Made by a program: the position numbers and the translations under genes. From Verrucomicrobiota bacterium (GTDB lineage: Bacteria; Verrucomicrobiota; Kiritimatiellia; JAHIZV01), in NCBI GenBank assembly GCA_018814445.1, contig JAHIZV010000149.1:1-48071 (forward strand): DNA of 48,071 nt, read 5' to 3'. The notes beneath the pieces are model-generated. The model was not told the DNA's origin and made no database searches. It saw nothing but the letters and a program-made list of their open reading frames with translations. Positions 14,176 to 39,583 of the stretch are shown here, in pieces. Position 1 is the stretch's first letter, and each line of letters opens with the position of its first letter.

Positions 14176-14256
<81 letters not shown>

Positions 14257-14258
14257 GA

Positions 14259-14284
14259 GGGGCCGAAACAAGCGTTTCGGCCCC
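14259..14284 (+). terminator. Terminator hairpin after tRNA-fMet (element-side)
   Basis: GGGGCCGAAAC-AAGC-GTTTCGGCCCC followed by TTCTTTATT. Confidence 0.75.
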
Positions 14285-14366
14285 TTCTTTATTGGGTTTT
14301 CTGCGTGTCCCTTTGTTTCCCTGCCGTGACGTGCGACAGCACGAACGGAGGGAAATCCGGTGGTCG

Positions 14367-14387
14367 AAAACCAACCAATCCACCAAC
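14367..14387 (+). repeat. 21-bp subterminal repeat, left copy
   Basis: AAAACCAACCAATCCACCAAC, identical at 39451-39471. Confidence 0.8.
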
Positions 14388-14420
14388 CGGAACCAACGGG
14401 GCCACCAACCGGCGCGGCGT

Positions 14421-14879
14421 TCAGCCGTCGCCGTCCAGGCATTGGAAACTTTCCAGCCGGATTTTCCAGACGTTGGAAGACTTTCGGGACCTGGTTTCCA
14501 GACGTTGGAACTTCTTGTCCATGCATTGGAACTTCCGTCCATCGCATTGACGGTGCTTCCGATGATCGGAAGCAGGTTGCCGCCACGGTTCCGGTGAACG
14601 GAAAGCCCCCATCCCCCCATTGCGCTCGCCCCCCTTCCCCCGCTCGGCGGAACGGCCGTTGCCGTTTCGGCGGCGAAGGATGACGTAGGTCGCCAGCATG
14701 GCGATGAGCGCAAGCCACGCGAGCGCGAGATAGGCGAGCATGAGCAGGAAGGTGTGGGTTTCACTCAGGGGCGCAAAGATTTCGAGCCCGAGCCAGGACT
14801 TGAACAGGCTCAGGAAGACAAAGGCCCCGACGGCCGCCAGGCCGGAGGAGGCCGCAGCTATGCGCCAGAAGGTTCTCAT
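14421..14879 (-). CDS. Possible small membrane protein; C-terminal part runs into TTCCA repeats
   Basis: N-terminal ~70 aa with two hydrophobic segments; distal part translates palindromic repeats, so the true 3' end or reality is doubtful. Confidence 0.4.
   Translation of the reverse strand: MRTFWRIAAASSGLAAVGAFVFLSLFKSWLGLEIFAPLSETHTFLLMLAYLALAWLALIAMLATYVILRRRNGNGRSAERGKGGERNGGMGAFRSPEPWRQPASDHRKHRQCDGRKFQCMDKKFQRLETRSRKSSNVWKIRLESFQCLDGDG
14434..14572. repeat. Array of five TTCCA-N5-TGGAA-type palindromes
   Basis: 14434-14446, 14464-14478, 14496-14510, 14518-14530, and CTTCCGATGATCGGAAG at 14556-14572. Confidence 0.75.
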
Positions 14880-14923
14880 GGTCGCTGGTGCCTCTCTCGT
14901 TCATGGAACGTATCATAGCTGGA

Positions 14924-17094
14924 ATCCCGTAGGGATGACAGCGCAAGAACGGGCGGAAGCCCGGTCGTCGCCGGCGGCGAAGCCGTCCGGCATGAGGCCG
15001 CGTCAGCGGCCAAGGGAAAGAGAAGGGTTCACCGATCGCGAAGCGGTCGGGGGAAGTGGAAAACCGTAGGTTGTCCTTTCTGGCAGAGGGGGGTTCCAAG
15101 GGGGGAGATACCTTTGCCGCCCCGGCTCTGCCTGCCTTTTGCAGCGGGGGCCTGTGAGCGCAGGGCGGGGCTTCGTGGACGCGAAGCGGACACGGCCCCG
15201 ACCAAGCGAAGCAGGCCGGGCGGGCGGGGGATGTGGCGGTCCGTAGCGCGATAGCGCGAAGGGCAGACACGGCCACGCACGCACCCGCTGCCGCATGACT
15301 CATGAACGGTCTCAACTGACCGGGCCTCCAGCGTTCCAGGCCGTCGATCCGTCTGCACGGATACGTGAACACTTCCATGCCAACGGTGACAACTGCGCGA
15401 AGCGCAGGAAGACGGGGCTGGCGTGAAACCTGCCGCCGTCTCGTCCGCCGTAGCCAGGAGCGAAGCGACGGCGAAGGCGGAAGGCAAGCAGGTTTCATGA
15501 CAGCTATGGGGTGTGGGGTGAATGACGCGCTTGATGCTGAGGATGGGCGCGGCATCGCGTAGCAGGGCCGTGCCCACCGGAAGCATGAAGTGCGGCAGAG
15601 GGGAGCACGGGCAGCCTGTCCGCCGTAGCTCGCTTGCGAGCGAAGGAGGAAAGCGGGGGCTCCCCTTCAATGAAACGAGAAGCCGGTTTGCGATGTGTGG
15701 CTTGCGCTGAATACCTGGAAGCGCAAGACGCACATGGCAGTACCGGCGTTCCTTATGGGGGCGACCAGCGGGAGCCGGGGCAAGGGCGGAGCGACGTTCG
15801 ATTTACTGACCGCGTTGGATTCACCCATGAGCCCCGACCCCGTGGCCTGATGCCGAGGGAACAGAAGACCTTCTGTTCCAGCCCGAAGGGGCCGCGGAAC
15901 CCCGGAATGTGTGGCGAGTGCGCGAGCCGGACATGGAGGGGTGGAGCGGATGCGGGTGTGCGCTGGAAAGGCTCAACGTCGCATAATGAATTCATTATGC
16001 GATGATGAGCCGGTGCCGCCAGGCCGTCGTAGATTCCTCGATGACCGTTCGATGAATCCACGGCGTCGATGACATTCACGGCCTCCGATTCACCGAGAAG
16101 GCTTGGCGGCATTCCAGCGCGCTCCCGCACGGCTCGGCAGCAGGTCACGGGGTCGGGGCGGCGTCTGCATCACCCAGCGCGTCGATTCCACCGATGAGCG
16201 GAGCCCGCACTACTGAATCGAAGTGGCGTAGCCACACCGCATGGGGGCTGGCGGACAACCTGCGGCCGTAGGCAAGCAGGTTGTGTGACAGCCGGGGTCT
16301 GGTAGGCCGCCGGTCAGCAAGCGGCTGCGGGTTCCGGTGACAGCCTGGACACGTAGGGGGAAGGATGGTGCCGGAATTCGCAGCGGCTTGCAGGCGGCCG
16401 GGGCGACGTGCTTGGAGTGACGGTTTCGGAGTGCCGGTAGTGAAGCGTCAGCCCGGCGGCGTGGAGAGCGTCGCCTGATTCGTAGAACGGAGCGACGGCG
16501 CGTAGCGCCGGGAACGGTCACGGCGATAGCCGTGTCCGTTCAGCGGAGCCGCGTAGCGGGCAGGCGTCGCTCGGAACGCCGTGGGCTGAACGCGGAACGG
16601 TAGGCCGGAGAAAGCGGCACTCGAAGCGCGGCGGGGGCACAATCGAAATAGAGCGCCGCCGGCCAACCACGTTTGCCGACACCATCAACGCCAATCCGGC
16701 GGCGCACCGCATCAGCGTAGGGACTGGCGCGGAAGCTGCCCGACCGTAGGGAGGAAAGTAGCAGCTTCCGTGACAGGCCCGGAGCGTAACCACGGAGGCG
16801 TGGCGCGACGGCTGCCGCCCGTAGGGCAAGCAGCCGGCGTGACACGCCGGTGCATGCGGAATCGGGCGAGCCGCGATAGCGGCGAGGATGCGGAAGGCGT
16901 TGAGCGAGAATGTGGCGATTGCATCACCGACCACGTAGCGATTGGCGCGACGCCTGGCTCCCGACGTAGGAGGGAAGCAGGCGGCGTGACAAGCGCGGGG
17001 CACGGGGATACGGAGCGCGATGCGTAGCGAGCGCGAGGAGGGGCAGGCTGGCGCGCCGCGTGCCCCGCCGTAGGCGGAAGCACGAGGCGTGACA
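14924..17094 (+). repeat. Hairpin-rich region with a repeated GTA-loop stem-loop followed by TGACA
   Basis: Units at 14924-14940, 15424-15502, 16255-16290, 16731-16775, 16809-16844, 16951-16991, 17059-17094 with different but self-complementary arms. Confidence 0.75.
15979..16002. repeat. 24-bp perfect palindrome TCGCATAATGAATTCATTATGCGA
   Basis: Self-complementary over 24 bp; AT-rich in GC-rich surroundings. Confidence 0.85.
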
Positions 17095-17156
17095 GCCGGG
17101 GGGATTGCCATGATCGGAGCTTGGAATCTGCACGGCAAACGGATAGGTTCTGCTTC

Positions 17157-20100
17157 ATGAACTTGCGCATGCTTATTATGGTTCTCGCTTCTGCCTTTAT
17201 CTCAACGGCAGCGTTCGGGCAGGCCCACAGCGACTTGGCCGATGTGCCAGCCGGTACCCGGAAGTTGATAATCCTCGTCCATGGTTGGAACAGCGGGGAT
17301 GTTGACGATATGTATGCCGAGGGTAACTGGCCCGCTCTGGTTTCTCAGTTGTCATCTCAGGCGGATGCACAGGGATGGGAGCTGCTCCTGTATGATTGGC
17401 ATGACATCGCGTCAACGGGTGGCGTCTTGGGGTGGGACTGGCAATATGGGCCTGTGGTTGCGTATCAGAACGGCGTAGAGGCTGCTATCGAAGCTCTTCT
17501 TCTCGGGGACGATCTGGGTGTAGCCCTGAGCGAATTTGGCGGTGCTGAGCCGAGCCTGCGCGAGGTGCATTTCATTGCTCACAGCGCTGGGTCTTGGTGC
17601 GCACGGAGAGCCATGAGTGTGATGATGCAGCGACATCCCTACGTTGTAACTCAGCTGACTCTTCTCGACCCATTTGTACCCGATGCCAGCTTGCTCTACC
17701 CCTACAATACGGGGCTAGATAACGACTACATGGAGAGCTTGGCAACAGGCCCATATCAGGACAGGATTTACCGGATCGAGAACTACTACGCGACTGTCAA
17801 TGACATTACGCTCTCGACGCAGGAAGAGTTTTCTTGGCGGTCTGGGGACATCAATCAGGATGTGTCGTACTTCGGACAGACGATTGGCTACCAATACACG
17901 GGACACGGGGGGCCGATTGGTTTCTACGCGGAGTCCGTTCAGGCAACGGATGGACCGCCGGTGCCATCTGGGCAAGCGCAAGCTCCTTGGGAGTTCACGC
18001 AGATTGGATTCTATCGAAGTCTCCTATACGAGTGGTTCCTTCGTCCAAGAATCACGCAGCAACCAGTTGGCGTGACAGCATCCGAAGGCAGTGAGGTGAC
18101 ACTTTCGCTCGCCGCGCAGTCTTCACAGGGTGTTAGCTATTCTTGGTACTACGAAGACGGTGCTTTCCCCGTCGCCACAGGGGCTTCGTATTCTTTCAAT
18201 ATCAACAGTGGAAATGCCGGGCGATACGTCGCTCTTGCGTACAACGCAAATGGCCTGATCTATAGCGACGTAGTCGTGGCTAGTATCGAGGAGCCGGACG
18301 CCCCGTCCATCTCAGGCGTTACACCGCGCACGTTGCTTACATCCGCTTCCCGCCAGCTCATCACGATCACGGGTAGCGGCTTCTCCGCCTCGACAACACT
18401 CCGATTCCATTGGGACGGGGAAACGTACTACAGCCAGCCGGAGCACTTCACGTATGTGAACTCGGGCGAGGTACGCTACAACGTTGCTGTAGGGACCGAT
18501 GGCGTGGGGGCGTGGACGGTGGTTGCTATTGACGGCGGGCAGGAGTCTGCTCCCTATGCGTTCACCGTGGTAGCCGCGCAGGCGACGCCGTTGTCCCTCG
18601 GCATCGAGGGCGCGGCGTCGATGTTTGAGAACGACTCAGAGAACTACGTCGCGCGTGTCTACTACTCGGATGGCACGAGCAGCTTGGTCACACCAACATG
18701 GTCTGAGGATTCGTCCGCGACCACGATTTCCAGCGGGGGCCAGCTTTCGGCCGGTTCCGTCAGCTCGGATACCCTGGTCACGATTACCGCTTCGTTCACC
18801 GCGAACGGCGTGACCGTCACTGACGATCATGAGGTGATGGTGCTGAACTCCGGCACGGGCGGCGGCGACACGGTTGAACTGATCGAGAATGGTGATTTTG
18901 CGGATGACGATGACCATTGGACGACCTCCGGGAACTTCTATGCGGACGACCGATTCAGCAACAGCCACAGCGACCCCGGCTATGCCTACCTTTCGCTTTC
19001 TGATGGGTCACCCGGCAATAACCTGAACGGGGAGATTGTTCAGTACATCGATGTTCCAGACGGGGCAACCGACGTAAGCTTGGAATACTGGTACCACATC
19101 ACGACCCAGGAGTCGGGGGGAACAGCCTACGATTACCTAGGTGTGAATGTGATCCGGGACGGCGGCGGCGTGGTCGAGAGTGAAACCCTTTCAAACTTGG
19201 ATGCGAACTCTGGCTACCAGCGGCGAACGATCAACCTGTCGGGCGTGGCTGGGGACCGGTTGCTCATCGGCTTCGGCGGATCGACCGATGGCAGCCTTCC
19301 GACGGTGTTCCGCATCGATGACGTGAGCGTCGAGGCGACGGTCCCGCCTGCCCTGGTCAACCTGGCAATCGAAGGCCCCTCGTCTGTGCTTGAGGAGCAG
19401 TCGGCACAGTACACGGCAGTTGCCTCGTTCGCGGACGGTTCCGAAGAAGTCGTTGACGCTGACGATTGGGACGAGGACTCCAGCTACGCCAGCATCACGA
19501 GCAACGGCCGTCTCGACACCGAGGAAGTAACCCGTGACCGTTCCGTGGGGATCGACGCGGAGTATACATTCAATGGCGTCAGGAAGACGGCCTTCAAGCG
19601 GGTGACCATCGTAAACGTTCGCCCTGCCTTCACCGGGGTCTCGATCTCGGGTCCGACTGTCGTGAATGAGCGCTCGGTTATCCAGTACGAGGCGCAAGCA
19701 CTCTACAGCGACGGCACGTCGGATGACATCGATCCACTCTGGACCGTGAACTCACCCTTCGCTTCGATCTCCGTGGGTGGTTCGCTCGGGATTGGTGAGG
19801 TCCGGTCAAACTCCACGGTCACGATAACGGCATCCTTCACCGAAGAGGGCGTGACACAGGTCGGAACGCTGGTCGTGAGCGTCAACGATATTTCCAATCC
19901 GCGCCTGCCGGTTTCTCTCGCCATCACCGGCCCGGCGGAGGTGCCCGAAGGGCGGTTCGGCGAATACGTGGCAACGGTCTACTACGACGATGGATCGTCC
20001 ATTGCGGTTGATCCGGACTGGACGGACAATTCTGCATTGGCCTCGGTTTCCGCCGCCGGCACGCTCAGTGTTGGAAGCGTGCTCCTTGATACGGACATCA

Positions 20101-22073
20101 CGATCGGTGCGACGTACACCGAGCAAGGCATCACGGTATCCGACAACAAGACGGTTACCATCGTGAACGACACAACCGCTCGCCTCTCTGCGGACCAGCT
20201 TGGGCTGACACATCAAATCACGGAAGGCGACTCCGTAAGCAACGATGTCCTGCGCATCTCCAACCGGGGGGATGGGACCGTCGATTTCACTGTAGGGCTC
20301 AGCGGCGCGGTTGGCTGGGTGTCAGTGGCCCCCAGCAGCGGGTCCGTCTCCAATAACGAGGTAAACGTCACGGTGATGTACTCAACCGAGGCCCTTCCGG
20401 TTGGGATTCACAGCGTTGATCTGCGAATCACTCCGACCACTGTTGCCGGGGAGGCGACCGCCATTCCGATCACGGTCATTGTCGAGCCCGATAGCACGGG
20501 GCAGCCCTATGTCGCCCTGTCTGCTCGTCGCACTGATGTGCCACGGGTCTCAGCCGCCGCAACAGCACCTGACGGCGGTTCCCTGCTTGTCGGGCATTTC
20601 TGGGAGCCAACCTCCGTGGCGGGGAGCAACCTCACAGCCGTCGGTTCACTGGGTGAAAGCGATGTGTTCGCCGTCCGCTTTGACGCAGCAGGAAATCTGA
20701 TGTGGTTACAGCAGTACGGCGGAGAATTTGAGGAGGAGGTTGACGACTGCATACCTCATCCTGCGGGAGGATGGCTGATGTGCGGCCATTTCCGCGAGAC
20801 GGGTGTCTTCGGAGCGCATTCGGTTGTTGCGGCCGGTACGGATGACAAAAGAGATGCCTACCTGGCGCGCCTCGACGATAGCGGAAACGTCCTTTGGGTA
20901 AGGCGTGCTGGCGGTGCAGAGACCGACTACGGAGAAGCCATTGCCACTGACAGTGCGGGCAACTGTATACTCTTTGGCGAGTTCACGGAGAACTGCACCT
21001 TCGATGGCGGCGGCACCACATTGACCGCTGTAGGAACCCGTTTCGATGTCTTCGTGGTGAAGTACAGCGCCACTGGAGGCTTCATCTGGGCGAAGGGTGC
21101 AGGCGGGGACGACTACGATACTGCCTCATGTGTGGGAGTGGACGGCACCGACGCCATCTACTTCGCGGGCAACTTCACCGACACCGCAACATTCGGCGGC
21201 ACCTCCCTGTCTGTGGAGGGGACTAGAAGCCGTGATGCCTACATCGCCAAGCTCAGTTCCAGTGGCAACTTCCAGTGGGCTCGCCGTTTCGGTGAGCCAG
21301 CCGGGGAAAGCTCCTCTGAAGACGTCGATTTTCTAACGCCTTCCAGCCAAGGCGGCATGTTCTTTGGTGGCTACTTCGACGGGCCGTGGACCATCCCTGA
21401 TGCCACCCTCCCTGACGCCGAGGGTGCGTTTGCTGGCCGGATCGAAGCTGATGGGGATGTTGCGTGGATTGACAATGTCTATGCAGACCACTGGGCTGAA
21501 AACGCTGAATTTGACTACGGCATGGAGATGGCAGATGGCGGGCTGTTGGCGGCCGGGAGCTATCGTGGGTGGTTTGAGTTCGGCTCCACCATCATCGAGC
21601 ACGATGAAGACGATCTTGAAGAGCACGAGATGATTGCGAAGTTTGCCCCCAACGGTGCGCCCGAGTGGGCTATCGCGATAACCTCTTCCAACAACACCAG
21701 CGTCCTTAGCTTGGATGCGGGCACAGGCAACAAAGTCCGTGCTTGGTTCTGGGCCGAGACTACCGTCAACCTGCCTGGCTACGGGTCGTTCGCCCTGAAT
21801 GGCAGCGACTGGATCGTGGTCGAGTTTGGTCCGCCCTCAGCCGAGATCCGTCCGGTACTGGACAACATGCGCATGGTGGAAGGTATGGTGCGCGCCCGAT
21901 TCTTCGGCATTCCGGGAGAAACCTACACTCTTCAACGGTGTCACAACCTCTTGGACAACGATTGGGACACGATACAGACTGGCGTCTTCTCCGATCTTGG
22001 CTGGATACTCTTCGAGGATGCCGATTCCCTCGGCACGACGAACTGCTTCTACCGCGTCTTGACCTCGCCGTGA
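17157..22073 (+). CDS. Very large secreted lipase-like alpha/beta hydrolase with Ig-like (BIG2-type) repeats, beta-propeller-like region and C-terminal domain
   Basis: ~1638 aa; signal peptide MNLRMLIMVLASAFISTAAFGQA; LIILVHGWNSG, HFIAHSAGS nucleophile elbow; repeated 'VT...DGTS...' Ig-like units; repeated 'YIAKLSSSGNFQWARRFG'-type blades. Confidence 0.85.
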   Translation: MNLRMLIMVLASAFISTAAFGQAHSDLADVPAGTRKLIILVHGWNSGDVDDMYAEGNWPALVSQLSSQADAQGWELLLYDWHDIASTGGVLGWDWQYGPVVAYQNGVEAAIEALLLGDDLGVALSEFGGAEPSLREVHFIAHSAGSWCARRAMSVMMQRHPYVVTQLTLLDPFVPDASLLYPYNTGLDNDYMESLATGPYQDRIYRIENYYATVNDITLSTQEEFSWRSGDINQDVSYFGQTIGYQYTGHGGPIGFYAESVQATDGPPVPSGQAQAPWEFTQIGFYRSLLYEWFLRPRITQQPVGVTASEGSEVTLSLAAQSSQGVSYSWYYEDGAFPVATGASYSFNINSGNAGRYVALAYNANGLIYSDVVVASIEEPDAPSISGVTPRTLLTSASRQLITITGSGFSASTTLRFHWDGETYYSQPEHFTYVNSGEVRYNVAVGTDGVGAWTVVAIDGGQESAPYAFTVVAAQATPLSLGIEGAASMFENDSENYVARVYYSDGTSSLVTPTWSEDSSATTISSGGQLSAGSVSSDTLVTITASFTANGVTVTDDHEVMVLNSGTGGGDTVELIENGDFADDDDHWTTSGNFYADDRFSNSHSDPGYAYLSLSDGSPGNNLNGEIVQYIDVPDGATDVSLEYWYHITTQESGGTAYDYLGVNVIRDGGGVVESETLSNLDANSGYQRRTINLSGVAGDRLLIGFGGSTDGSLPTVFRIDDVSVEATVPPALVNLAIEGPSSVLEEQSAQYTAVASFADGSEEVVDADDWDEDSSYASITSNGRLDTEEVTRDRSVGIDAEYTFNGVRKTAFKRVTIVNVRPAFTGVSISGPTVVNERSVIQYEAQALYSDGTSDDIDPLWTVNSPFASISVGGSLGIGEVRSNSTVTITASFTEEGVTQVGTLVVSVNDISNPRLPVSLAITGPAEVPEGRFGEYVATVYYDDGSSIAVDPDWTDNSALASVSAAGTLSVGSVLLDTDITIGATYTEQGITVSDNKTVTIVNDTTARLSADQLGLTHQITEGDSVSNDVLRISNRGDGTVDFTVGLSGAVGWVSVAPSSGSVSNNEVNVTVMYSTEALPVGIHSVDLRITPTTVAGEATAIPITVIVEPDSTGQPYVALSARRTDVPRVSAAATAPDGGSLLVGHFWEPTSVAGSNLTAVGSLGESDVFAVRFDAAGNLMWLQQYGGEFEEEVDDCIPHPAGGWLMCGHFRETGVFGAHSVVAAGTDDKRDAYLARLDDSGNVLWVRRAGGAETDYGEAIATDSAGNCILFGEFTENCTFDGGGTTLTAVGTRFDVFVVKYSATGGFIWAKGAGGDDYDTASCVGVDGTDAIYFAGNFTDTATFGGTSLSVEGTRSRDAYIAKLSSSGNFQWARRFGEPAGESSSEDVDFLTPSSQGGMFFGGYFDGPWTIPDATLPDAEGAFAGRIEADGDVAWIDNVYADHWAENAEFDYGMEMADGGLLAAGSYRGWFEFGSTIIEHDEDDLEEHEMIAKFAPNGAPEWAIAITSSNNTSVLSLDAGTGNKVRAWFWAETTVNLPGYGSFALNGSDWIVVEFGPPSAEIRPVLDNMRMVEGMVRARFFGIPGETYTLQRCHNLLDNDWDTIQTGVFSDLGWILFEDADSLGTTNCFYRVLTSP

Positions 22074-22517
22074 TCACGGCGGGAATCGCTCGCGGAGCGA
22101 GCGTAGGTCCTCGCCTATGACGTGGGATCGCGGGCCGTCCGGGTAGGCGTCGATGTCCCTGCTGAGCGCCTCGTAGAACCTGGTAGGATTGATGATGTTC
22201 TGCCAGGCCGTCAACCGGTAGGGCTCGGTCGGTAGCCCGTCCCGGTTGTCCCCGAACCAGCGGATCAGTTCCTCGGTAACGGGGTCGGGGTCGACGCGGT
22301 GTCGCCGGCCGCGTCGGGCCGTGGGTTTTGGCTTCGACTTCGGGGGTTCGGGCGGGACATACGCTTCAGACGGTTGTTTCGGAGTCTCACGCGTGAGGGT
22401 GTCCTGTGTTTCCCCGTCGGGGCGTGAGGTCGCCGTAGACCGTATGAAGCGTATGTTGCTCAGGGTCTTGATGACCTTGCCTGCCGGATGACCTGCGGAG
22501 TCCGCAATCTGTGTCAC
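22074..22517 (-). CDS. Hypothetical protein, translationally coupled to primase-helicase
   Basis: GTG start overlaps the upstream stop (GTGA) with GGAGG ribosome-binding site; 147 aa; start inferred. Confidence 0.6.
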   Translation of the reverse strand: MTQIADSAGHPAGKVIKTLSNIRFIRSTATSRPDGETQDTLTRETPKQPSEAYVPPEPPKSKPKPTARRGRRHRVDPDPVTEELIRWFGDNRDGLPTEPYRLTAWQNIINPTRFYEALSRDIDAYPDGPRSHVIGEDLRSLRERFPP

Positions 22518-25030
22518 GGAGCGACCTCCTTCAGGCCGACGTGGGCGAAGCCGCGTTGGTTCTTGTCGTTGCGTTTGATGTCCGTTCGTTTCGCGACCCG
22601 GTGAATCTCCATCATGATGTCGCTCACCTGGTGCTCGAACTGGCGCACCGTGACCGCCTGCCAAGCCTGCTCGTCGCAGAAGTTGTTGTAGGCGGTGAGT
22701 AGTTCGCTGACTGTCACGTCGGAACCGTCCTGCTTCCCGACACTCTCGCTCACGAAGTGGCGCACGCTGTCAGATTCGCAGAGCAAGGCATCGACGCGGC
22801 GGATCTGGTCCTCGGTCATCTGAATCTGGCCGTAGGTGTCCAGTTCGGCCAGGAGCCGGACCGCTCCTTCGATACACCAGTTGAGAATCCCCGGTCCTTC
22901 CGCCGCGACGAGCCGCCGGTCGAAGTTGGGAATGGGTTTCTCCGTCGGTGGCTGGTTGTAGTCGATGATGAGCAAGCGCCGCCGCCACGCCCCGGAATCG
23001 GCGTCGAGCCGGACGTGTAGCCTGCTGTTCGACGTGATGAGCACGTTGAACTCGCCGAAGACCTCGAACCTGTGTCGGCAATTCTTCTGCTCGGCGTTGA
23101 GCCGGTCGCCGCCGACCAGGGCCTTGAGCACGTAGGCCGACTTGTTGTTCAGGAAATCGCCCGGTACGTCCTTGCCGCTGAGCATGGTCTTCCCCACAAA
23201 CCCGGCAATCTCGAATCGCTCGGCCAGGTGTTGAACCCGGAGTTGGGCGACGTTGAAGGTCCCGATGACCGATTCCAGGATGTTCGCCAGCGTGGACTTC
23301 CCGCCGCCGGGCGTCCCTCGCAGCAGTAGAATCCGCTGAGAGGGGTTGCATCCAAGAAGACACTGCCCGGCGTACCGCTGAAGCAGGGAAATGTCCGCCT
23401 CCGACAATGCCGGCAGAAGCAGCTTCGCGAGGAACTCGGGACATTCCGCGGCCTCGTCGAAACAGATTTCTGAACGGTTGCGGGAGAAGTAGTCCGGACT
23501 GAACTCGTGAAACGTGGGCGGGTCGTCGGACAGGTGCAGGACACCGTTTCCCATGTGGATGATGTACTGCGACCGCCGGAACACGTCGGGTTTCTCGATC
23601 ATGCCCCGGAGTAGCCGGAGCATCTGCGCAAGCAGATTCTCGGTCCGCTTCTTCAGCAGAACCCCGCCGCCGCACTCGTGGAGGATTTGCCTCAAGGCGT
23701 GGCCGATTTCCACGATCACGCGGGATTCCGTCTTGGACTTCCAGAGCCCGGTTGCCGGGTCGTAGTCGTAGAACATGTTCAGGGTCGGTTCATGCAGAAT
23801 CAGGTTGTCGCGGGCGAACTTCGCCGCGACGAACATCTGATTCACGTCGGACGGTTCATCCTTGCCGTTCAGCATCACGGGCGGACCGTACTCCTGAACC
23901 AGGTCTTCATCGCCGGGCACGTCCACCACGGGATTCCGGGGCCGTTCATTCCGTCGCTCGGACCTTGGCTCAAACTTGGCTCTCAGCGCCTTCCAGTTGT
24001 TGCCCTTGCATCCGTCGTGCTGACACTTGAACCCGAGAACGCCGTCGGACTTGATCACGATGACCGCTGACCGGTTGGTGTGCTCGGAGTTGAATGGGCA
24101 GACACCGAGTATCCACTTGAAGCCGCCGTCGTAAGGCGTGGCCGGTCCCGGATGGCAGTCGCCGAGACGGGTGTCGATGAACTCCTGAACGCGGTCCTTG
24201 TCCCATGCCTGACCTCGCCTGCTCTCGCGCTTCCGTGCGGGCGGACGGGATTGTTCTGGTTCCTTGGCCGTGGGCGCTGCCGCCCCGGCCAGGGCGTCGA
24301 GCTTCTCCGTCGGAACGGGCTCGATGTTCTCTGGCACCCGGAGTAGACGCGACAGCCGATGGGTACGGCCAAGGTCGGGACAATCGTCCCCTTTCTCGGC
24401 TCTCGTTCCGTACAGCTTCACGATGCGGGCAGGATTGAAGACGGTAGTGTCGATGCTGACCGCCTCGTCGCTGAACCGCTGGTGCAGGGCTTCGAGACAC
24501 TGCTTCACCTGTGGGGTATCCGCCGGCAAGTCCACCCGATAGAGCAAGTGGTAGCCGTTGCCCGAATCTCCCGCGATGGGCTCGGGCCAAGCGTCCTCTT
24601 TCAAGGCGGTGTAGACCTCCCTTGCCTTGGCGTGGGCCTGTTCCTTCTCCTCGTCGCTGGCGGAGATCCCCGCCGGTCGTTTCGGATCGGCGTCCACCAA
24701 CAGCCACCGCCGACAGAGGATGTCCTTGTCGGCGGTGGTCTGGCCGTCCTTGGCCTCCGTGAACTTGTTGTGACTGCGTGCCAATAGGACTGGATTCACC
24801 GGGTTCATGGTCACGTAGATTCCCTTTGCGCCGACCAACCGAAGGTCGGTCAACGCTTGGGGCACCTGGGCCGGGTCGTCGAAGTAGCCGTAGATCACGC
24901 GGGGCGAGTATCGCCCGCCCCGTCGTGGTTCCAGAATCCGCACTTCGAAGACCTCGCCCGGAGCGACCAGAAGCGACAACGCTTTCTGGACCTCCGGCGC
25001 ATCGAGCATCGGCGTGGCGGCATCAGTCAT
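22514..25030 (-). CDS. Prim-pol (AEP)-zinc finger-SF3 helicase (phage/plasmid primase, D5/P4-like)
   Basis: LLVDADP (DxD), SGNGYHLLY, CQHDGCKGNNW zinc-finger-like, GTPGGGKSTLANIL Walker A; start at internal ATG 25030. Confidence 0.88.
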   Translation of the reverse strand: MTDAATPMLDAPEVQKALSLLVAPGEVFEVRILEPRRGGRYSPRVIYGYFDDPAQVPQALTDLRLVGAKGIYVTMNPVNPVLLARSHNKFTEAKDGQTTADKDILCRRWLLVDADPKRPAGISASDEEKEQAHAKAREVYTALKEDAWPEPIAGDSGNGYHLLYRVDLPADTPQVKQCLEALHQRFSDEAVSIDTTVFNPARIVKLYGTRAEKGDDCPDLGRTHRLSRLLRVPENIEPVPTEKLDALAGAAAPTAKEPEQSRPPARKRESRRGQAWDKDRVQEFIDTRLGDCHPGPATPYDGGFKWILGVCPFNSEHTNRSAVIVIKSDGVLGFKCQHDGCKGNNWKALRAKFEPRSERRNERPRNPVVDVPGDEDLVQEYGPPVMLNGKDEPSDVNQMFVAAKFARDNLILHEPTLNMFYDYDPATGLWKSKTESRVIVEIGHALRQILHECGGGVLLKKRTENLLAQMLRLLRGMIEKPDVFRRSQYIIHMGNGVLHLSDDPPTFHEFSPDYFSRNRSEICFDEAAECPEFLAKLLLPALSEADISLLQRYAGQCLLGCNPSQRILLLRGTPGGGKSTLANILESVIGTFNVAQLRVQHLAERFEIAGFVGKTMLSGKDVPGDFLNNKSAYVLKALVGGDRLNAEQKNCRHRFEVFGEFNVLITSNSRLHVRLDADSGAWRRRLLIIDYNQPPTEKPIPNFDRRLVAAEGPGILNWCIEGAVRLLAELDTYGQIQMTEDQIRRVDALLCESDSVRHFVSESVGKQDGSDVTVSELLTAYNNFCDEQAWQAVTVRQFEHQVSDIMMEIHRVAKRTDIKRNDKNQRGFAHVGLKEVAP

Positions 25031-25298
25031 TGGACACCGCCTTCCTGCTCCTCCTCTGATACGGCCGCAAGCCCCACAGGGGGCAGGCCGGAGCCGTACA
25101 TTCCCGGATGGCGGCTTCGTCCATCCAGCAGCATTCAAGGCACTTCGCCTTGATCGCCTGCCGTGGGGACGTTTTGCCCCGGTAAACGCGCTCGAACAGG
25201 GACTTCTTGCCGGGGGCGTCCTTCGACACCTGATCCAACATCTGTGCCCGTTTCTCGTCGCGAAACTCGTCGTCTCGGTTGGTTTGAATGGCAATCAT
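25023..25298 (-). CDS. Small Cys-containing hypothetical protein typical of mobile elements
   Basis: 91 aa; AIKAKCLECCWMDEAAIRECTAPACPLW; overlaps both neighbours. Confidence 0.65.
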   Translation of the reverse strand: MIAIQTNRDDEFRDEKRAQMLDQVSKDAPGKKSLFERVYRGKTSPRQAIKAKCLECCWMDEAAIRECTAPACPLWGLRPYQRRSRKAVSND

Positions 25299-25624
25299 TG
25301 GGACACCTCCGAGCCGTCGCCCGCCGGAGCGCCTTCCGACGCGAAGGCGGGCCCGTTGGCGAGTTGTTCGAGGTCGGCCCGGCGCACGCGGAAGCTGCCC
25401 GGAAGTATCTCAACCTTCGTCAACCGCCCGGACCGGATCATTCTCCACAGCGTCGCCCGGCTCACGCCAAGGAACTTGGCTGCGGCCGACATACCCAGCA
25501 GCAACGGCCCGCTGGTCGTCTCGACCCTTGCCGTAACCTTGCCGTCGAGAATCCTGTCAATCTCCGCCTGCTGGTTGGGACCGGCCTGGAGAATCTTCAT
25601 CAAGCGTTCGTTCTGATTCGTCAT
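25295..25624 (-). CDS. Excisionase/MerR-type helix-turn-helix DNA-binding protein
   Basis: MSAAAKFLGVSRATLWRMIRSGRLTKVEILPGSFRVRRADLEQL. Confidence 0.8.
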   Translation of the reverse strand: MTNQNERLMKILQAGPNQQAEIDRILDGKVTARVETTSGPLLLGMSAAAKFLGVSRATLWRMIRSGRLTKVEILPGSFRVRRADLEQLANGPAFASEGAPAGDGSEVSQ

Positions 25625-25636
25625 GGTCGGTCCTCC

Positions 25637-25831
25637 TTAGCAGTCGAAGAGTTCGAAGGTGGGTTTCCCGAGTACATCGGCAATGAGGCGCTTCGTCTCG
25701 GGGTCCGGCCGGGACCTGCCCGTCTCGTACCGCGAGATGTCGATTTCCTTCTTGCCGACCATTCCCGCGAGCTGGAGCTGGGTCAGACCCTTCCCCACTC
25801 GCGCCGCCTTCAGTCTGGTGTTGGTTGCCAT
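25637..25831 (-). CDS. XRE-family transcriptional regulator
   Basis: 64 aa; RVGKGLTQLQLAGMVGKKEIDISRYETGRSRPDPETKRLIADVL. Confidence 0.88.
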   Translation of the reverse strand: MATNTRLKAARVGKGLTQLQLAGMVGKKEIDISRYETGRSRPDPETKRLIADVLGKPTFELFDC

Positions 25832-25937
25832 TGGGCAATCTCCTGTTTGCTACAGTGGCGGAACCATTCCGCCGCTTGCCCGGCATGGCTGGATTTCTCG
25901 CGTCCGACTCTGGACAAACCGCGTCCAGAAACAGAAA

Positions 25938-25967
25938 GCCCCGTGGAGCGGGAACGCTTCACGGGGC
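25938..25967 (-). terminator. Terminator of the defence-like operon
   Basis: GCCCCGTGGAGCG-GGAA-CGCTTCACGGGGC hairpin followed on minus strand by TTTCTGTTT; 24 bp downstream of QueC-like stop. Confidence 0.75.
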
Positions 25968-25990
25968 GCTGAGACAGGAAAGTCGGTTTG

Positions 25991-28165
25991 TCAGTCGGAC
26001 CAGGTAACGCCGTCCGGCGGCTCGTAGGTGAACGTCTGCGCAACCTGGGCGCGGGTGCGTGACGATCGGCTGCCGGAATAGCGGGATGACGGTTCGATCA
26101 AGTGTTTCTGAAGGTGGTCGGCGAAGGCGTGGTAGACGCCGTTGCCGTTGCCTTGGTTGTCCTGAAACGCGGTGAGATTCTTCACAAGCCGGGTGATGGC
26201 CTGCCGCACACGGTCGTATGCTTTGGCGGCGTTACTGGTCTGCGTCGCAACCGCCTTGCTGAGGTGCTCGTCAATCTGCTCGACGATCCGGCTGGCCTCC
26301 CGCCGCTCCATCTCGTTGGCGTCGGGGTCGTCCTCGACCGCCGCATACTTCCGCCGGAGCTGCCACAGCCGGCGCGCGCCGTCCTTCTCGTCCATGCTGA
26401 GATTCCGCTCCTGAAGGCGGGCGTTGCGGCCAAGCGTGATCTTCTTCCCGGTTTCCGGGTCCAGAATCTCCGCCATTCCGTTCTTGTCGGTCTTCACGTC
26501 GCTGACTTCGGCCTCGATGTCGCAGACGTGGACAGGCTCCTTCGGCGGGTTCTTCAGAAGGTACTCGACGAGTGAGAGCCCCTTCTCATGCCCAATGGAT
26601 GCGCGCTCGCCGTCGAATACGATCTCCCAGTTTCCCCGGAACTGCCGCAGGCGGTAGCGCGGCCCTGGGTCTTCCGTGGCGACGGTGACCGGCGGAGGAG
26701 AGACGGCCGGGACGCAAACGACACTGCCGGTTTCGTAGACGATACGGAGCAGGCAGTCACCCGGCAGGGTCCTGTTGAAGATGTCGTCCACGTGTCGGGC
26801 AAGCATGGTCTTGATCGCCCGGCTGACCTCGTGGGCGTGGTTCTTGTAGAGTTCGAAGACCCTGCCCGCGGCGCTCGTCACATCGAGCCGGAGGTAGCGT
26901 AGGCAACGCGCTACTTCCGGGAACTCGGAGAACAGGTCGGCGATGTCGTGCAGGTTGTCCACGCTCGATGCCCGCGCAACGTAGGTCGCGAGCATCGTCT
27001 TGTCTTCGTGGTTCGGGAATGAGTCGGTGAACACGTTTCGCTCGTACTGTTCAATGGGGTCGAGCGATTCCGCGTTGGCGGCGACGATGGCGATACGGCG
27101 GTCGATACACTGCGAGCAGGTGCCGCAATGCGAATGCTCCTTTGTGCGCGTCCAGGTATGGGCGCAGCTCGTTGAAGGGCCGATGAGGTCGCCGCAGTCG
27201 GCCTTGATGAGTTGCTCGATCAAATCGCCCTTGGTGTACCAGATGAAAGGATTCTCCACCGCGAAGGGCTCACCGGCAACGAGCGTGAGCAGGTCTTGGA
27301 AACCCTGAATCACCCTCGGGTGGGTCGTTCGCGTCGCCCGTGCGCCGATGACCTGGGGGCACGTCGGCAGGTTCATGCTGACCACGCCGTTTTCGTAGAA
27401 CCGGACGGAAGACAGGCCGAGCATCCGCGCCACGGTCGCCCCGAGACAGACGTACAGGAACGAACGGGTCCGTTGGGTGTAGTCCCGGTTCAGCTTCGAC
27501 GATTTGTTGATCCGCACCGGGATATGAGTCGGCTTGAACGCTCCCGCCTTCGCGGCAAGAAGCTGTTCCAGAGCCCGGAGCCGGTTGTTCAGCTTGGCCG
27601 TGGGCCTGTGGTTCACCAACACAATCCGGTTCTTCTCCACCACACTTTCCTGAACCGCTCCGGCAAGCGAATCGAGCCCGCCCGAATACATGACAACCTG
27701 ATTCGGCCGTGCGCTGTTCGGCCCTGCGTCACTGAGTTGAAGATACTGCTGAAAAGGTGGTGCGCCGTGTGCCGGGTAGAAGGTGAACTCGAATACGTCA
27801 TCCGACAGGAACTCCAACGTCTGAGTGAGAACCTGCCCGACCTCGGCGGAACGCCACACGTCGGGGCATCGCACCGGGATATGGAGCCGCAACAGCCGCC
27901 GCCAGCGACTGCCCAGCGTGTCAACGTCCAGGCCGCCGCGCGTCAACGCCTGGTCGGCGCAGTAGACGTAGGCCGCGATTTCCAGAAGGTCTTGAAAGAC
28001 CGGGGGAACATCACGCATGAGCGGCTTGTGGATGTCGGCGATCTTCAGGCGCACGTTGCTTTCGTCCTTGCTCCCCCACAGGGTGAGCGCAAGGTGTCGC
28101 GCGCCGCTCTCGCCGGCATCAGGCGGTCCCGCGCCGCCGCAAGCTATGACATTATCATTCTGCAT
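25991..28165 (-). CDS. QueC-like PP-loop ATPase (QatC/Cap9-like) with long C-terminal extension
   Basis: 724 aa; VVMYSGGLDSLAGAV PP-loop; CAHTWTRTKEHSHCGTCSQCIDRR QueC-type zinc cluster; C-term IGHEKGLSLVEYLLKNP...VRQAITRLVKNL...TYEP. Confidence 0.82.
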   Translation of the reverse strand: MQNDNVIACGGAGPPDAGESGARHLALTLWGSKDESNVRLKIADIHKPLMRDVPPVFQDLLEIAAYVYCADQALTRGGLDVDTLGSRWRRLLRLHIPVRCPDVWRSAEVGQVLTQTLEFLSDDVFEFTFYPAHGAPPFQQYLQLSDAGPNSARPNQVVMYSGGLDSLAGAVQESVVEKNRIVLVNHRPTAKLNNRLRALEQLLAAKAGAFKPTHIPVRINKSSKLNRDYTQRTRSFLYVCLGATVARMLGLSSVRFYENGVVSMNLPTCPQVIGARATRTTHPRVIQGFQDLLTLVAGEPFAVENPFIWYTKGDLIEQLIKADCGDLIGPSTSCAHTWTRTKEHSHCGTCSQCIDRRIAIVAANAESLDPIEQYERNVFTDSFPNHEDKTMLATYVARASSVDNLHDIADLFSEFPEVARCLRYLRLDVTSAAGRVFELYKNHAHEVSRAIKTMLARHVDDIFNRTLPGDCLLRIVYETGSVVCVPAVSPPPVTVATEDPGPRYRLRQFRGNWEIVFDGERASIGHEKGLSLVEYLLKNPPKEPVHVCDIEAEVSDVKTDKNGMAEILDPETGKKITLGRNARLQERNLSMDEKDGARRLWQLRRKYAAVEDDPDANEMERREASRIVEQIDEHLSKAVATQTSNAAKAYDRVRQAITRLVKNLTAFQDNQGNGNGVYHAFADHLQKHLIEPSSRYSGSRSSRTRAQVAQTFTYEPPDGVTWSD

Positions 28166-28943
28166 CTTGTTCCGGGTCCGTCAGCATGGCCGACCGCATC
28201 TTCTCCAAGGCGTACCAGCCGAATCCGTCGGCCGACTCCCGCGAGATGTCTCCCGCTTCCTCAAAGCGGTGCTTCGAGAACCAGTCGCCGCTGTACTGCT
28301 CCACAACCACCGATGACTCGTCGCAGTGCGTCTTCATCGCCTGCTGGAACTGCGTCACCTGGTTCGTCGTGGCAAAAGCCTGCCCCTCGCCGATATGGCT
28401 GCTCATGGTCTTCGACAGGAAGTAGCCCATGAACTCGTTCGAGACGTGGGAGAAGAACGACCGGGAAAGTTCGCCGAAAGCCTTCTTCTTTCGCAGGTCT
28501 TGAAGGGCCACCCGGACATCGTGTTCCGACGGCGCGAAAAGCTCGGGAAGCCGGGCCTTCATGTGCTGGGTCACGGCCCGGATCAATGACCGCTGGGCCA
28601 TTTCGCCGAAGTCTGAACGGTCCTTGGTTCCGGCAAGCCGCCGGTCCATCGCGTCAGTGATGGCAACGATCACTTCCGGGAGTGACGTATCCTTCGGGAT
28701 ATGAACGCCGACCTTGGCAAGGTGCGCGGCCGGGTCTTCCTTGGAAGCGGCCACGGCAAGTTGAGTCAGGATATTGACGGCTTCGCGGAAGCCGGTGTCG
28801 TGCTGCGCGGTGGTGAGGGCCTTCTCCGATGCCCGGATGGTTGCGTCAGCAACCTTCTCGACATCCGCCCCGTTGGACACAAGGCTCGTGACCTTCTGCC
28901 ATGTCCGGGACTTCGGGAGTCCTTTTAGCAGTACATGGCCCAT
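28155..28943 (-). CDS. Unknown protein beginning Met-Gly, coupled to QueC-like gene
   Basis: 262 aa; MGHVLLKGLPKSRTWQKV; 11-nt overlap with QueC-like start; GGGAG-type ribosome-binding site upstream. Confidence 0.75.
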   Translation of the reverse strand: MGHVLLKGLPKSRTWQKVTSLVSNGADVEKVADATIRASEKALTTAQHDTGFREAVNILTQLAVAASKEDPAAHLAKVGVHIPKDTSLPEVIVAITDAMDRRLAGTKDRSDFGEMAQRSLIRAVTQHMKARLPELFAPSEHDVRVALQDLRKKKAFGELSRSFFSHVSNEFMGYFLSKTMSSHIGEGQAFATTNQVTQFQQAMKTHCDESSVVVEQYSGDWFSKHRFEEAGDISRESADGFGWYALEKMRSAMLTDPEQDAE

Positions 28944-28967
28944 TCAACCGGTCTCCCTTCGGATATG

Positions 28968-31900
28968 TCACACAAACGCCTCACTGCACACAATGTGCGG
29001 GATTGCCCTTTCGGATATGCTCAAGTTCCGCTGTGTGGCAGCATCCTTCAAGTTGTGCTGGTCGTAGATTCGGATCATGCTCTTCATAAGGCCATCTCCG
29101 GTGACCGAGTTGCGCCGAAGCTGGTTCAACTCCCGCTTGACTGCACCGGTCACGGGACCCCTGAAAACCTTCTCCAACACATTCACGTTTTGCTTAACGT
29201 CCTCGTCGGCCGTCGCCTCAAAAAGCAGCCGAAGTTCCCTCAGCACGTAGAGCTGGCCGTGCGTAAGGCTACCAGTGTAAGAGCGCTCGGCTTCGCGATG
29301 TCGAACCTCTTCGGCAAACTGCCGTTGAACGGCCATCACCTTCTTGTTGTAGTCATCCGGCAGCGCTGCGGCCGCCGCGTCCGGGGCGCACTTCACTGTC
29401 CCCACCACCTTGGGCACGTCCCGCGAGATGACTTCACTATTCTCGTCTAGCAGGAACATTTGCTGAAAACGCCCTGCCTGGCAGAACACGTACAGGCCGC
29501 GTTGAAGGGATGGCCGAGCCGTCCTGATCCCGTCGCGCAAATTGGCTATTCGTTCGTACTCGTCGGGGTTATCCTTCCGCAACTGCCGCAAGATTTCCTC
29601 GGCTTCGTTCAGGTCAAGGAACTCGTCGTCCGCGCCGCCCCACAGGTCCAGTTGGACAGGAGCGCCGCCGCGAGTCTCGTAGATCGCGTACATGGCTTCC
29701 GGGTTGAGTTTCTCGGAGCCATCCAGTATCTCGGAATCCTCGCCGATGGTGTCATGGATTTCCTGAATGCGGTTGTGTAGCTTGTCTTTGAGGCCGAGAT
29801 TCTTGTCGAGTTTGGTTTCAGGCAGGAAGTTGAAGCCGAAAATGAGTTCGTGTTCCGACCCGATACGGTCAATGCGTCCAAAGCGTTGAATCAGGCGGAC
29901 CGGGTTCCAGTGCAGGTCGTAGTTGATGATGTTGTCGCAGTCCTGAAGGTTCAAACCTTCGGCCAGAACGTCGGTGGCAATCACCATCATCAGTTCGGCC
30001 TCGTCCTTGGTGAACCGATACTCCGGGTTGGCCTTCGGCGCGAAGCGGCCAACAATCTTCTCCTTGCTCTTATCGCCGCTGAAGATGACTTCGATGTCCG
30101 GGTTCTTGCCGTCGGGGTTCAGGTTGGCAAAAAGGTATTTCGCCGTATCGGCGTACTGGGTGAAGATGAGTCGCTTCGCCCCCTTCAAGGGCTTTTCCGC
30201 AAGGCGCTTCTTCAACGTCTGGAGTTTGGCGTCCTTCTCCGGGGTGATCGGTGAGACCAGTTTCAGAATTTTCTGAAGCAGTTCGATGTCATGCTCGATG
30301 TGCGCCCGCAGTGCGTTCAGGTCAAAGTCGCCCGCGTCATACCGTTTGGATACCTCTCGGAGGGCGTCCACCAGGGCGCCTTCTTCCAGAATGTCGCTGT
30401 CGTACAGTAGATACTGTGCTTCCTCGCCCGCCGGCACGAAGCCCGCGTCCAGCGACGCGACGAAAGTCTGATGCATCTTGAGGAGCCGCTTCACCGTCTC
30501 CTTGAAGGCGTACACGCTGGATTCAAACCGTTTGAAAAGCAACACGCGCATCAGGCCACGCAGGTTTGCCCCTGCGCGTTGGAGACTGGTATAGGGCTCC
30601 TTCTTTTGTTTCGCCGGTTTGACGTAGTGCCAGAGACCATATCGGGCGTAGGTGAGTTCTCCATCGGGCAGGGCCTTTGTCGGCTTGCCCTTCCGGGGCT
30701 TGCCCAGGTGCCCGCGCAACTCCTGATAGAGCCCCTGATAGGTGTCTTCGATGCTGTACTCGATGGTTTCCAGTTCTCGCTTCGGGAAGAACTGATGTTT
30801 GCCTCCGACCAGCACGTAAGCCTTCCGCGTGCCCTGGAGGTATTCCTGAAAGCGGTTCGGGTCAACCGGTTCGTGGGTTTCAGCATCGAACCCATACCAG
30901 CGCAGGATGTGTTGCCGGGTCCGGCGAACGAGGATATGCGCCAGCAGGTCCGGGAGTTTCCGCTCGGTCTTGTCGATGAGTTTGAAGTAGTCCTTCAGAT
31001 TCGGCGGGTCCACCGGCAAGTCGGTCCGGTCGTCCTGGTGAAACAGTTTGATCTGGTGATACACGTCCCAGGCGCTCTTGTTCCGGGGTGTGGCCGTGAG
31101 CAAACAGCACCGCCGGCCGGTGGAAAGGAAAGTCTGCACGACCTTGTAACGCTGGGTATCCGGGTGCCGGAGATTGTGGCTCTCGTCCACCAGCACGAAA
31201 TCCCGGTCCTTGTACTTCACATCGTTCAGCAACCGAGTGACGCCGTCCTGTTCGTCTTCACGCAAGAAACCCATCGAGAGGACGCGAGCGTTGAGCTGAT
31301 AGACCTCGTTGTATCGCTCCCACATATCCACCAGTGGGGCCGGACATAGAACTAGCGGGCGCGCGTGGTCGGACCGCTCAAAGTGTTTCACGATGGCCGC
31401 GCCGATATAGCTCTTGCCCAACCCAACCACGTCCGACACAAACGCGCCGCCGAAGTCTCGCACCATCTGGACGGCCAGGCGGACCGCAACCTTCTGGAAC
31501 TCAGCCAGTTTGCGGAAGATGTCGTCGTCCCAGAGCAATTCCTGCTCGTCCTCCGCTTCAAGCCGGTCTCGGACAAGCGCGTAAAGCGTCTTCATGTAGA
31601 TGTCGTAAGGACGGACCTGGGCGGCTGCCCATGACTGCTGGAGCTCGGTCATGAGTGTTTCGTCGAAATCCTGCGAATCCTTCCATAGTTCATCAAACCA
31701 CCGAACCAGCTCCGTATGGTTCTGGTTCCCCTGAACGATGACGTTCAGTTCCGTGTTGTGGGTCAAGCCTGCGAGAGTCAGGTTCGAGGAGCCGACAACG
31801 GCAATACCCTTCTCGTGACGTTCGATTTCCTTCCCGACCAGATCAAATACCTTGCCGTAGTCGCAAATGTAAGCCTTTGCGTGGAGCCGTCCTTTCGTGT

Positions 31901-32315: not shown

Positions 32316-32330
32316 GTCAGCCCGTTTCCC

Positions 32331-36676: not shown

Positions 36677-36677
36677 G

Positions 36678-38023: not shown

Positions 38024-39367
38024 TCAGCCGGCGAGAACTTCCCGGATGGCCTTGATGTCGCGCCAAGCCGTCTTGCTGGTGGCCTTGGCAGCGATCTCCG
38101 CCACCTGTTCCATCGGTGTCTTGCTCTGGCCGTTGGTGAGCAGGCGGGGCATGGCGGATTGCAGGGCGCGGCGGAACTCCTCCTGCCCCGGCTGGAAGTA
38201 ATGCTTCAGCACGATGTCGGTGGTCTTGTGGCCGGTGACCTTCTGGACCAGTTCCAGGGGCACGCCGGCCGTCAGGGCGAGCGTGACCCACGTTACCCGG
38301 AAGCTGTGGAAGTCGCGCAGGGAAGCGCGGCGCAAGCCGCCTTCCCGTTCGGCGTGAATCTCGCCCCGGACTTTCTCCTTCTTCCCGTTCTCGTCTTCCT
38401 CCGCGTCCTTGAACCCGGCGGCGGCGAACACCTTCCGCACCCGCCAGGTGATCCCATCGGGATTCGCCTGGTACATCTCCGCCTGCTCGGGGAAGACATA
38501 CGCTTCAGACGCCTTCCACTGGCTCAGTTCGTCGTAGAGCATCGGGAATATGGGAATACTCACGGTCTGCCCGGTCTTGTTGGTCTTGACGGTGATGAAC
38601 CGCTTGCGGAGGTCCACGTCATTCCATTTCAGCAGGCAGCAGTCGCCCCGGCGCATGGCCGTGCAGATCCCGACAATGAGCACGGGCCGGATGAAGTCGT
38701 CATCGCGGGCGGCGTCCACAAGGGCCTTCAGTTCCTCCGGGGTGAACGGCTTGCGGAAGACAGTCTCGGTCTCGCGAGTCGGAATCCCGGAGAAGGGGTT
38801 GATGGCCCCGGCGGGCATCAGGTGTTTGAACGTGGCGCGACACAGCTTCAGCGTGTCGTTCCACGTCTTGGCCGTCACCCCGCGGGCTTCCTCGGCGTCC
38901 ATGAACGAGCGCGCCAGCGCGCGAGTGACATGGGCGATTTCCAGCGCCTTGGGGTTCTCGTGCCGCACGAAGGCCGCGAAGCGGGCGAGTGTGGACCGGC
39001 ACTGCTTCGCGTAGCGGGGATTCGGCTTCCGCTTGCGTGGGATCTTCGCCCACTCCTCCGGCAGGTCGGCCAGGGCGACCGTCTCGATCTGCTCGCCGGT
39101 CTTCAGCTCGTAGAGCTTCTCGACCAGGCGGGCGGAGCCGCGCTTCTGCCGGGCCTCCTCCACGATGCCTTCGAGCTTCGCGAGCGCGGTAGCGCGCGAG
39201 CGTTCGAAGGCCGTGTCGCCCTCGTCGCGCAGCGACAGGGAGGCCGGCGGGTGGCCGCCGATCTTGACCCCGAGATTGTCGCAGTACCGTTTGCCGTTGA
39301 TCTCGTAGCGCCCGTACCAGAACGGCCGGAGCGTCCCGTCCGTATTCTTCCTGAACTCAAGAGGCAT
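38024..39367 (-). CDS. Tyrosine recombinase / island integrase
   Basis: GICTAMRRGDCCLLKW (R), HSFRVTW (HxxR), VTGHKTTDIVLKHYFQPG (H..Y); adjacent to attR. Confidence 0.94.
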   Translation of the reverse strand: MPLEFRKNTDGTLRPFWYGRYEINGKRYCDNLGVKIGGHPPASLSLRDEGDTAFERSRATALAKLEGIVEEARQKRGSARLVEKLYELKTGEQIETVALADLPEEWAKIPRKRKPNPRYAKQCRSTLARFAAFVRHENPKALEIAHVTRALARSFMDAEEARGVTAKTWNDTLKLCRATFKHLMPAGAINPFSGIPTRETETVFRKPFTPEELKALVDAARDDDFIRPVLIVGICTAMRRGDCCLLKWNDVDLRKRFITVKTNKTGQTVSIPIFPMLYDELSQWKASEAYVFPEQAEMYQANPDGITWRVRKVFAAAGFKDAEEDENGKKEKVRGEIHAEREGGLRRASLRDFHSFRVTWVTLALTAGVPLELVQKVTGHKTTDIVLKHYFQPGQEEFRRALQSAMPRLLTNGQSKTPMEQVAEIAAKATSKTAWRDIKAIREVLAG

Positions 39368-39450
39368 CGCACACCGCCTTTCGCTGTAATAATCCAAGCT
39401 CCTGAAACTGTCAGGAACATACAGCCGCAGACGGGACACGCGCAAGCAGA

Positions 39451-39471: not shown

Positions 39472-39532
39472 GGAAACCGGACGGAATGCTAAGAAATGCT
39501 AAGTATAGGCGGCATACGCCGCGAACGCTTCC

Positions 39533-39583
39533 GGCTCATAACCTGAAGGTCGTTGGTTCGAATCCAACCCCCGCTACCAATTT
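39533..39583 (+). repeat. attR direct repeat / tRNA-fMet 3' fragment
   Basis: 51-bp identity to 14206-14256; lacks the tRNA 5' half. Confidence 0.93.

Follow-up and report, generated by a model that had tools for sequence, protein, structure and literature searches.

Locus and hairpin architecture

The window, which is the whole stretch of DNA analysed here (48,071 nt, positions 1 to 48,071 of a contig from a Verrucomicrobiota genome of the class Kiritimatiellia), carries a 25-kb integrative element in tRNA-Met (14203-39583). Just inside its left end lies a GC-rich island crowded with small hairpins.

14203..14256, + strand: left direct repeat of the element (putative attL), formed by the 3' part of tRNA-Met; 54 bp with 98% identity to 39530-39583
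14924..17100, + strand: GC-rich island (0.65-0.68 G+C) with dense mini-hairpins, containing the six heads listed below
38024..39445, - strand: tyrosine recombinase of the integrative element (PF00589, 7.8e-15), adjoining the right repeat
39530..39583, + strand: partial tRNA-Met, right direct repeat (putative attR) of 54 bp

By the curated cut-off, the recombinase is no integron integrase (TIGR02249, 23.5 bits against a cut-off of 265). No DNA like that of the window was found in the plasmids searched. Directly behind the island, 17121-22073 encodes a secreted protein of 1650 aa that has TIG/Ig-like repeats, a weak match to a beta-propeller and an N-terminus that looks alpha/beta-hydrolase-like by eye. 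The element also holds a defence cluster (22514-37745) with a D5/DUF5906 primase-helicase-like protein, a QatC-like protein, a PLD-SNF2 helicase (DrmD / HKD+Snf2-like), a type IIG restriction-methylase and an Mrr-type PDC-S02 protein.

The hairpins of interest, together with one short stem, are given below with their scores in the family model R1. We call the six family members heads, and their assignment to the attC-head type is explained further on.

14924..14946, + strand: short stem ATCCC-GTA-GGGAT, outside the family (9.1 bits, E 3.7)
15419..15503, + strand: head 1, attC-head type, perfect 10-bp arms TGAAACCTGC/GCAGGTTTCA, nested hairpin inside the loop (54.2 bits)
16249..16291, + strand: head 2, attC-head type, arms GACAACCTGC/GCAGGTTGTG, loop GTA (66.1 bits, E 1.7e-12)
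16725..16776, + strand: head 3, attC-head type, arms CGGAAGCTGC/GCAGCTTCCG (42.6 bits)
16801..16845, + strand: head 4, attC-head type, arms CGACGGCTGC/GCAGCCGGCG, A.G mismatch at arm position 3 (56.4 bits)
16943..16992, + strand: head 5, attC-head type, arms CGACGCCTGG/GCAGGCGGCG (46.9 bits)
17049..17095, + strand: head 6, attC-head type, arms CGCCGCGTGC/GCACGAGGCG (49.6 bits)

Each head reads TGGCG, a copy-specific 10-bp arm, an interior that varies in length, a second arm complementary to the first, and TGACA. The original prediction had described a family of seven copies with a common CC-GTA-GG inner hairpin, differing but complementary outer arms and a trailing TGACA. Six of these stem-loops hold as members on the + strand, and the seventh, at 14924, drops out at the score given above. 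TGACA is indeed present, but it is the pairing partner of a 5' TGGCG that had been missed and is the strongest feature of the family: the two strings pair as T-A, G-C, G.A, C-G and G.T, and the helix extends further outward. Likewise, the outer arms do differ between copies while staying complementary, but their length is 10 bp in every copy. The inner CC-GTA-GG hairpin is no family constant, as short relatives have a loop of 3-5 nt in its place; what is constant at the top of the arm is TGC/GCA.

Under DNA folding parameters, each of the six window hairpins is more stable on the + than on the - strand, by 5-10 kcal/mol; for heads 2 to 6 the values (+ vs -, in kcal/mol) are -20.1 vs -14.9, -22.1 vs -13.9, -26.9 vs -19.5, -22.0 vs -12.4 and -26.3 vs -19.8, respectively.

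Covariation, distribution and column pattern

For the covariation analysis, we used a core alignment of seven rows, comprising the six window heads and one further copy from contig C24 of the host genome, with inner loops trimmed by hand. Both sides had changed in 8 of 17 pairs (shuffled mean 4.2), and the covariation score was 0.403 compared with 0.103 for shuffles, none of 500 shuffles reaching the observed value. The signal was lost when the pairing partner was slid by 1-3 columns. Together with the pattern over about 20 genomes, this test bears out the earlier claim that compensatory change reflects a conserved structure.

R1 is a covariance model built from the same seven copies, and thus based on the hand-trimmed inner loops; its E-values come from a short calibration and are rough. 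The search of the whole host genome (4.06 Mb) that the original prediction had proposed returned seven strong matches at E<=1.3e-6, six in the window and one on contig C24, followed by a gap to the next match at E=2.2. A weaker eighth host copy, found in a small search (27.7 bits), lies within an attC on contig C39. Across the class, the family was found in 17 of 97 genomes, host included (16 of 72 among the good genomes), and a stricter class-wide pass recovered it in 20 of 347. Copies number from one to about seven per genome, with divergent arms. In the phylum sample, a further 12 genomes of other classes carry the family.

A collection of 54 distinct hairpins shows which columns are fixed and which are free to vary. 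All 54 have G-C at position 1; at position 2, G.A occurs in 45 and G.T in 8; and 49 have G.T at position 4. By comparison, Watson-Crick pairs occupy the ten arm positions in 32-53 of 54 hairpins, with several pair types at each position. Outside TGGCG/TGACA, GGA stands opposite GTA in many of the hairpins. The mismatches are purine-rich when read on the + strand (G.A, G.T, G.G), with A.C and T.C almost absent, which indicates that the function lies on one strand.

This pattern bears on a reading in which the palindromes are purely mutational, arising by template-switch correction of quasi-palindromes or serving as bidirectional terminators, with no bound factor. The joint change of both arms with few intermediates would fit such a process, as would the frequent position of islands between convergent genes. 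Template switching, however, would repair the G.A and G.T pairs, yet these positions are non-Watson-Crick in 53-54 of 54 hairpins; it would also yield no strand bias, and the stems lack the following T tract of a terminator. We regard this explanation as very unlikely.

A second possibility, that the hairpins are palindromes of the REP kind, mobilised by a RAYT/Y1 transposase for which GGAG/GTAG is the tag, draws on real similarities. Both systems consist of strand-specific single-stranded DNA (ssDNA) hairpins with required mismatches and a GTAG tag (PMC8266576): TnpA-REP needs GTAG and the stem mismatches (PMC8266576), and GTAG repeats have been reported for the PVC superphylum (PMC3733652). 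GGAG 5' and GTAG 3' flank many island heads, and Y1 transposases occur in 82 of 97 class genomes, in one case (L068) ~1-2 kb from an island. Against this, a family of one to about seven arm-divergent copies per genome differs from the hundreds of near-identical palindromes expected of REPs, and the seven strong copies in 4 Mb of host genome, with their divergent arms, do not form such a set. GGAG faces GTAG within the stem as a G.A/G.T/A.G loop, which fits a free 5' tag poorly; in the genome G045, a 56-bit head occurs without any Y1 match; and in other classes the head is an integral part of attC sites, as described below. Copy number, arm divergence and gene presence lend no support to the Y1/RAYT source suggested at the outset, which we consider improbable.

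The same head in integron attC sites

In other classes of the phylum, R1 matches form dense arrays, all in the same orientation. In G442, G444, G377, G543 and others, a hairpin recurs every ~500-650 bp beside small antiparallel ORFs, with one site per ORF, and its flanks are those of a canonical attC: GCCNAACG, L' GATGAGCC, the TGGCG..TGACA hairpin, L'' GGCTC and R'' GTTNGGC. One of these arrays (L170) adjoins an integron integrase (TIGR02249, 370.7 bits against a cut-off of 265). Given the canonical flanks and the integrase beside that array, the hairpin is the variable terminal structure (VTS) of the attC bottom strand. The family had been thought to match no known repeat family; in fact, integron attC sites of this phylum carry the same hairpin as their head.

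Complete attC sites of this headed type also occur in the window's own class, for example in the tilS-ftsH interval of L081 (90.5 bits) and in L114 (65.8 bits); more exist. A comparison of two related species over the tilS-ftsH interval yielded no empty site: G015 (L081/L135) has a putative 81-aa ORF with a full, headed attC, an insert resembling one integron cassette that has landed at a secondary site, and G040 (L132) has another small unit in the same place. The SDH of L068, likewise, had no counterpart in the relatives searched. The host genome itself contains a full attC with the same head (L103, 44.1 bits) and two TIGR02249 matches over the cut-off (contigs C39 and C76), none of them on the window contig. 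A second XerD/IntI-like recombinase (L103, 5647-6642; 106 bits, below the integron cut-off) lies right behind the host integron integrase. Over the class, integron integrases exceed the curated cut-off in 51 of 97 genomes, compared with 0 of 14 control genomes. The head might also have been the usual attC form among integrons of the window's class; we rejected this, as a single one was found in 270 kb of integrase neighbourhoods; the short attC sites of G075 are without the head.

The heads share with the integron attC (59-base element) the hairpin itself, the strand that folds and the fixed mismatches and, at most loci but not in the window, the placement next to a gene. The window copies differ in that they have neither R nor L boxes, in that several stand in one island with no gene between them, and in that they lie in an integrative element on a contig without an integron integrase. 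We refer to heads of this kind, which are found in the window and at about 30 loci of its class, as bare heads. R boxes were sought on the bottom strand as RYYYAAC on the 5' side and GTTRRRY on the 3' side. Both boxes were present in 0 of 47 bare heads, the six window copies among them, compared with 16 of 19 attC sites (control 0.5). Around the window heads, a search for L boxes and spacer gave no match, the model R2 covering model positions 28-73 or less with 14.7-22.8 bits; island copies match R2 at positions ~29-72 only. Two further arrangements were rejected: a giant attC enclosing the whole island, for which the island ends showed no R-box pair, and islands as canonical attC sites, for which an attC finder gave nothing convincing.

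Bare heads might be left over from a former integron array, their recombination boxes lost to erosion. They are homologous to attC heads, and the host genome has two integron integrases and one headed attC. The flanks of bare heads, however, contain AACG in 7 of 47 cases and GTTNRRY in 0 of 47, counts no higher than those of the shifted control (10.7 and 3.4), and the fixed mismatches are intact. Nor would erosion wipe out the boxes at about 30 loci while sparing the heads. With the box residue gone and the mismatches intact, the bare heads are not simply decayed sites, and we give this explanation little credence. That the attC tip occurs apart from the sites of cutting suggests a separate function for it.

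Strand-specific folding, gene context and proposed role

Islands with bare heads are GC-rich, 0.1-2 kb long and crowded with mini-hairpins. Different genera have an island backbone in common (TGACAGCTATGGGG, GGTGAATG, CAGAGGGGAACCGGG, GGGGGTTCCCC); in the window it runs GGGGC..TGACAGCTATGGGG..GGTGAATG..CAGAGGGG, with the head at 15419..15503 as its first head, and this backbone recurs at 9 loci of other genomes. In four pairs of homologous islands, compensatory changes numbered 6, 10, 8 and 1 compared with control values of 1.0, 3.3, 1.8 and 0.9, respectively.

Based on long-ORF calls, most of 34 loci have a small convergent gene, often low in G+C, as the nearest one on the 3' side. This convergent geometry is that of a gene and the bottom strand of its attC. 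The window is an exception: the gene 3' of its island (17121, + strand) is co-directional with the heads. Heads usually lie 3' of, and antiparallel to, small immunity-like genes that are often RHS-associated, and RHS-repeat proteins adjoin at least 9 islands. Comparison of the island-neighbour genes with each other and with array cassettes revealed no useful homology. At L069 and L075/L076, RHS genes stand in tandem as near-identical units (2.5 kb at 98% and 4.2 kb at 100%) with an island between the units.

The original prediction left open whether RNA or single-stranded DNA was the folded species, and the loops allow this to be narrowed. In 15.9 kb of islands, the + strand has 43 GNA loops, 39 with a closing C-G pair, where shuffles give 6.6, and GNNA loops number 21 compared with 6.5. 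The complementary TNC loops are at chance (3 vs 3.6 in shuffles), as are the RNA tetraloops GNRA and UNCG. The window island by itself has 9 GNA loops (0.9 expected) and 6 GNNA loops (0.9 expected), with 0 and 0 of the complement-strand loops. GNA and GNNA loops on G-C stems are known as extraordinarily stable DNA mini-hairpins (PMC4686876). The island hairpins resemble these in their C-G-closed loops with G.A inside, enriched on one strand; the published mini-hairpins differ in being a physical loop class and no genetic element. In the variable arms, moreover, G.T takes up about 6 and A.C 4 of 540 cells, and G.A and G.G are common. RNA helices are not known to drift with G.T as rare as A.C. 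Taken with the rare G.T of the arms, the strand-biased mismatches and the C(GNA)G loops favour folded single-stranded DNA of the + strand over RNA.

A large structured non-coding RNA from the island strand, or an RNA antisense to the adjacent immunity gene, with the hairpins as its stems, has several observations in its favour. Compared with shuffles, long islands are far more stably folded (z -7.2 on +), their conserved backbone motifs with variable stems between look RNA-like, and the compensatory changes exceed the control in three of the four island pairs. However, the loops enriched on one strand are of the DNA type with RNA tetraloops at chance, the variable arms hold G.T about as rarely as A.C but G.A and G.G often, and the - strand of an island folds well too (z -10.4). 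Rfam covariance models gave no match on 14260-17200, either at gathering thresholds or up to E 1, and the same head belongs to attC, a known ssDNA structure. We consider an RNA unlikely, if a little less so than the other alternatives.

On balance, we slightly favour the interpretation that the window hairpins are detached attC heads, ssDNA structures that form on one strand where exchangeable genes end on their 3' side. The heads would act as folded ssDNA of the strand that matches the attC bottom strand. When the region becomes single-stranded, or is extruded under supercoiling, a protein could bind the head via its fixed mismatches, the likeliest binder being an integron-type tyrosine recombinase or a partner factor. 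A head without an R box is not itself cuttable by IntI and would therefore serve as a recognition or folding module. In that role it may mark where exchangeable gene cassettes, commonly toxin-immunity genes that follow RHS genes, end on the 3' side, and may promote their exchange. The rarity of heads near integron integrases of the window's class, the co-directional gene behind the window island and the absence of any residual R box from the bare heads count against this interpretation.

Published work assigns the VTS a weak role: in the Vibrio VCR it is dispensable for recombination and can be replaced by GAA (PMC2727003), and its length affects attC folding and extrusion (PMC8946536). IntI action by itself would thus not lead one to expect a conserved VTS head, and such a head calls for another binding partner. 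Somewhat more tentatively, we propose that the head is an autonomous, portable ssDNA module read by a protein, forming the attC tip in the integrons of this phylum and standing alone in islands of RHS toxin-immunity loci and integrative elements, where it would serve cassette exchange without R-box cutting.

The attC VTS has been regarded as variable and dispensable; here, a precise mismatched head is kept across a phylum and also occurs alone elsewhere. Its retention makes it directly testable whether attC tips bind something besides the pair of integrase subunits that sit at the R and L boxes. A further link is that between folded ssDNA of the integron style and RHS toxin-immunity genes, at their 3' ends; how these genes are exchanged is poorly understood. 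The C(GNA)G loop bias, for its part, provides a simple sequence test for distinguishing ssDNA from RNA elements. As a separate observation, most attC bottom strands in the integron array L107 (G080) end in a C(GGA)G loop, the same class of DNA mini-hairpin as in the islands.
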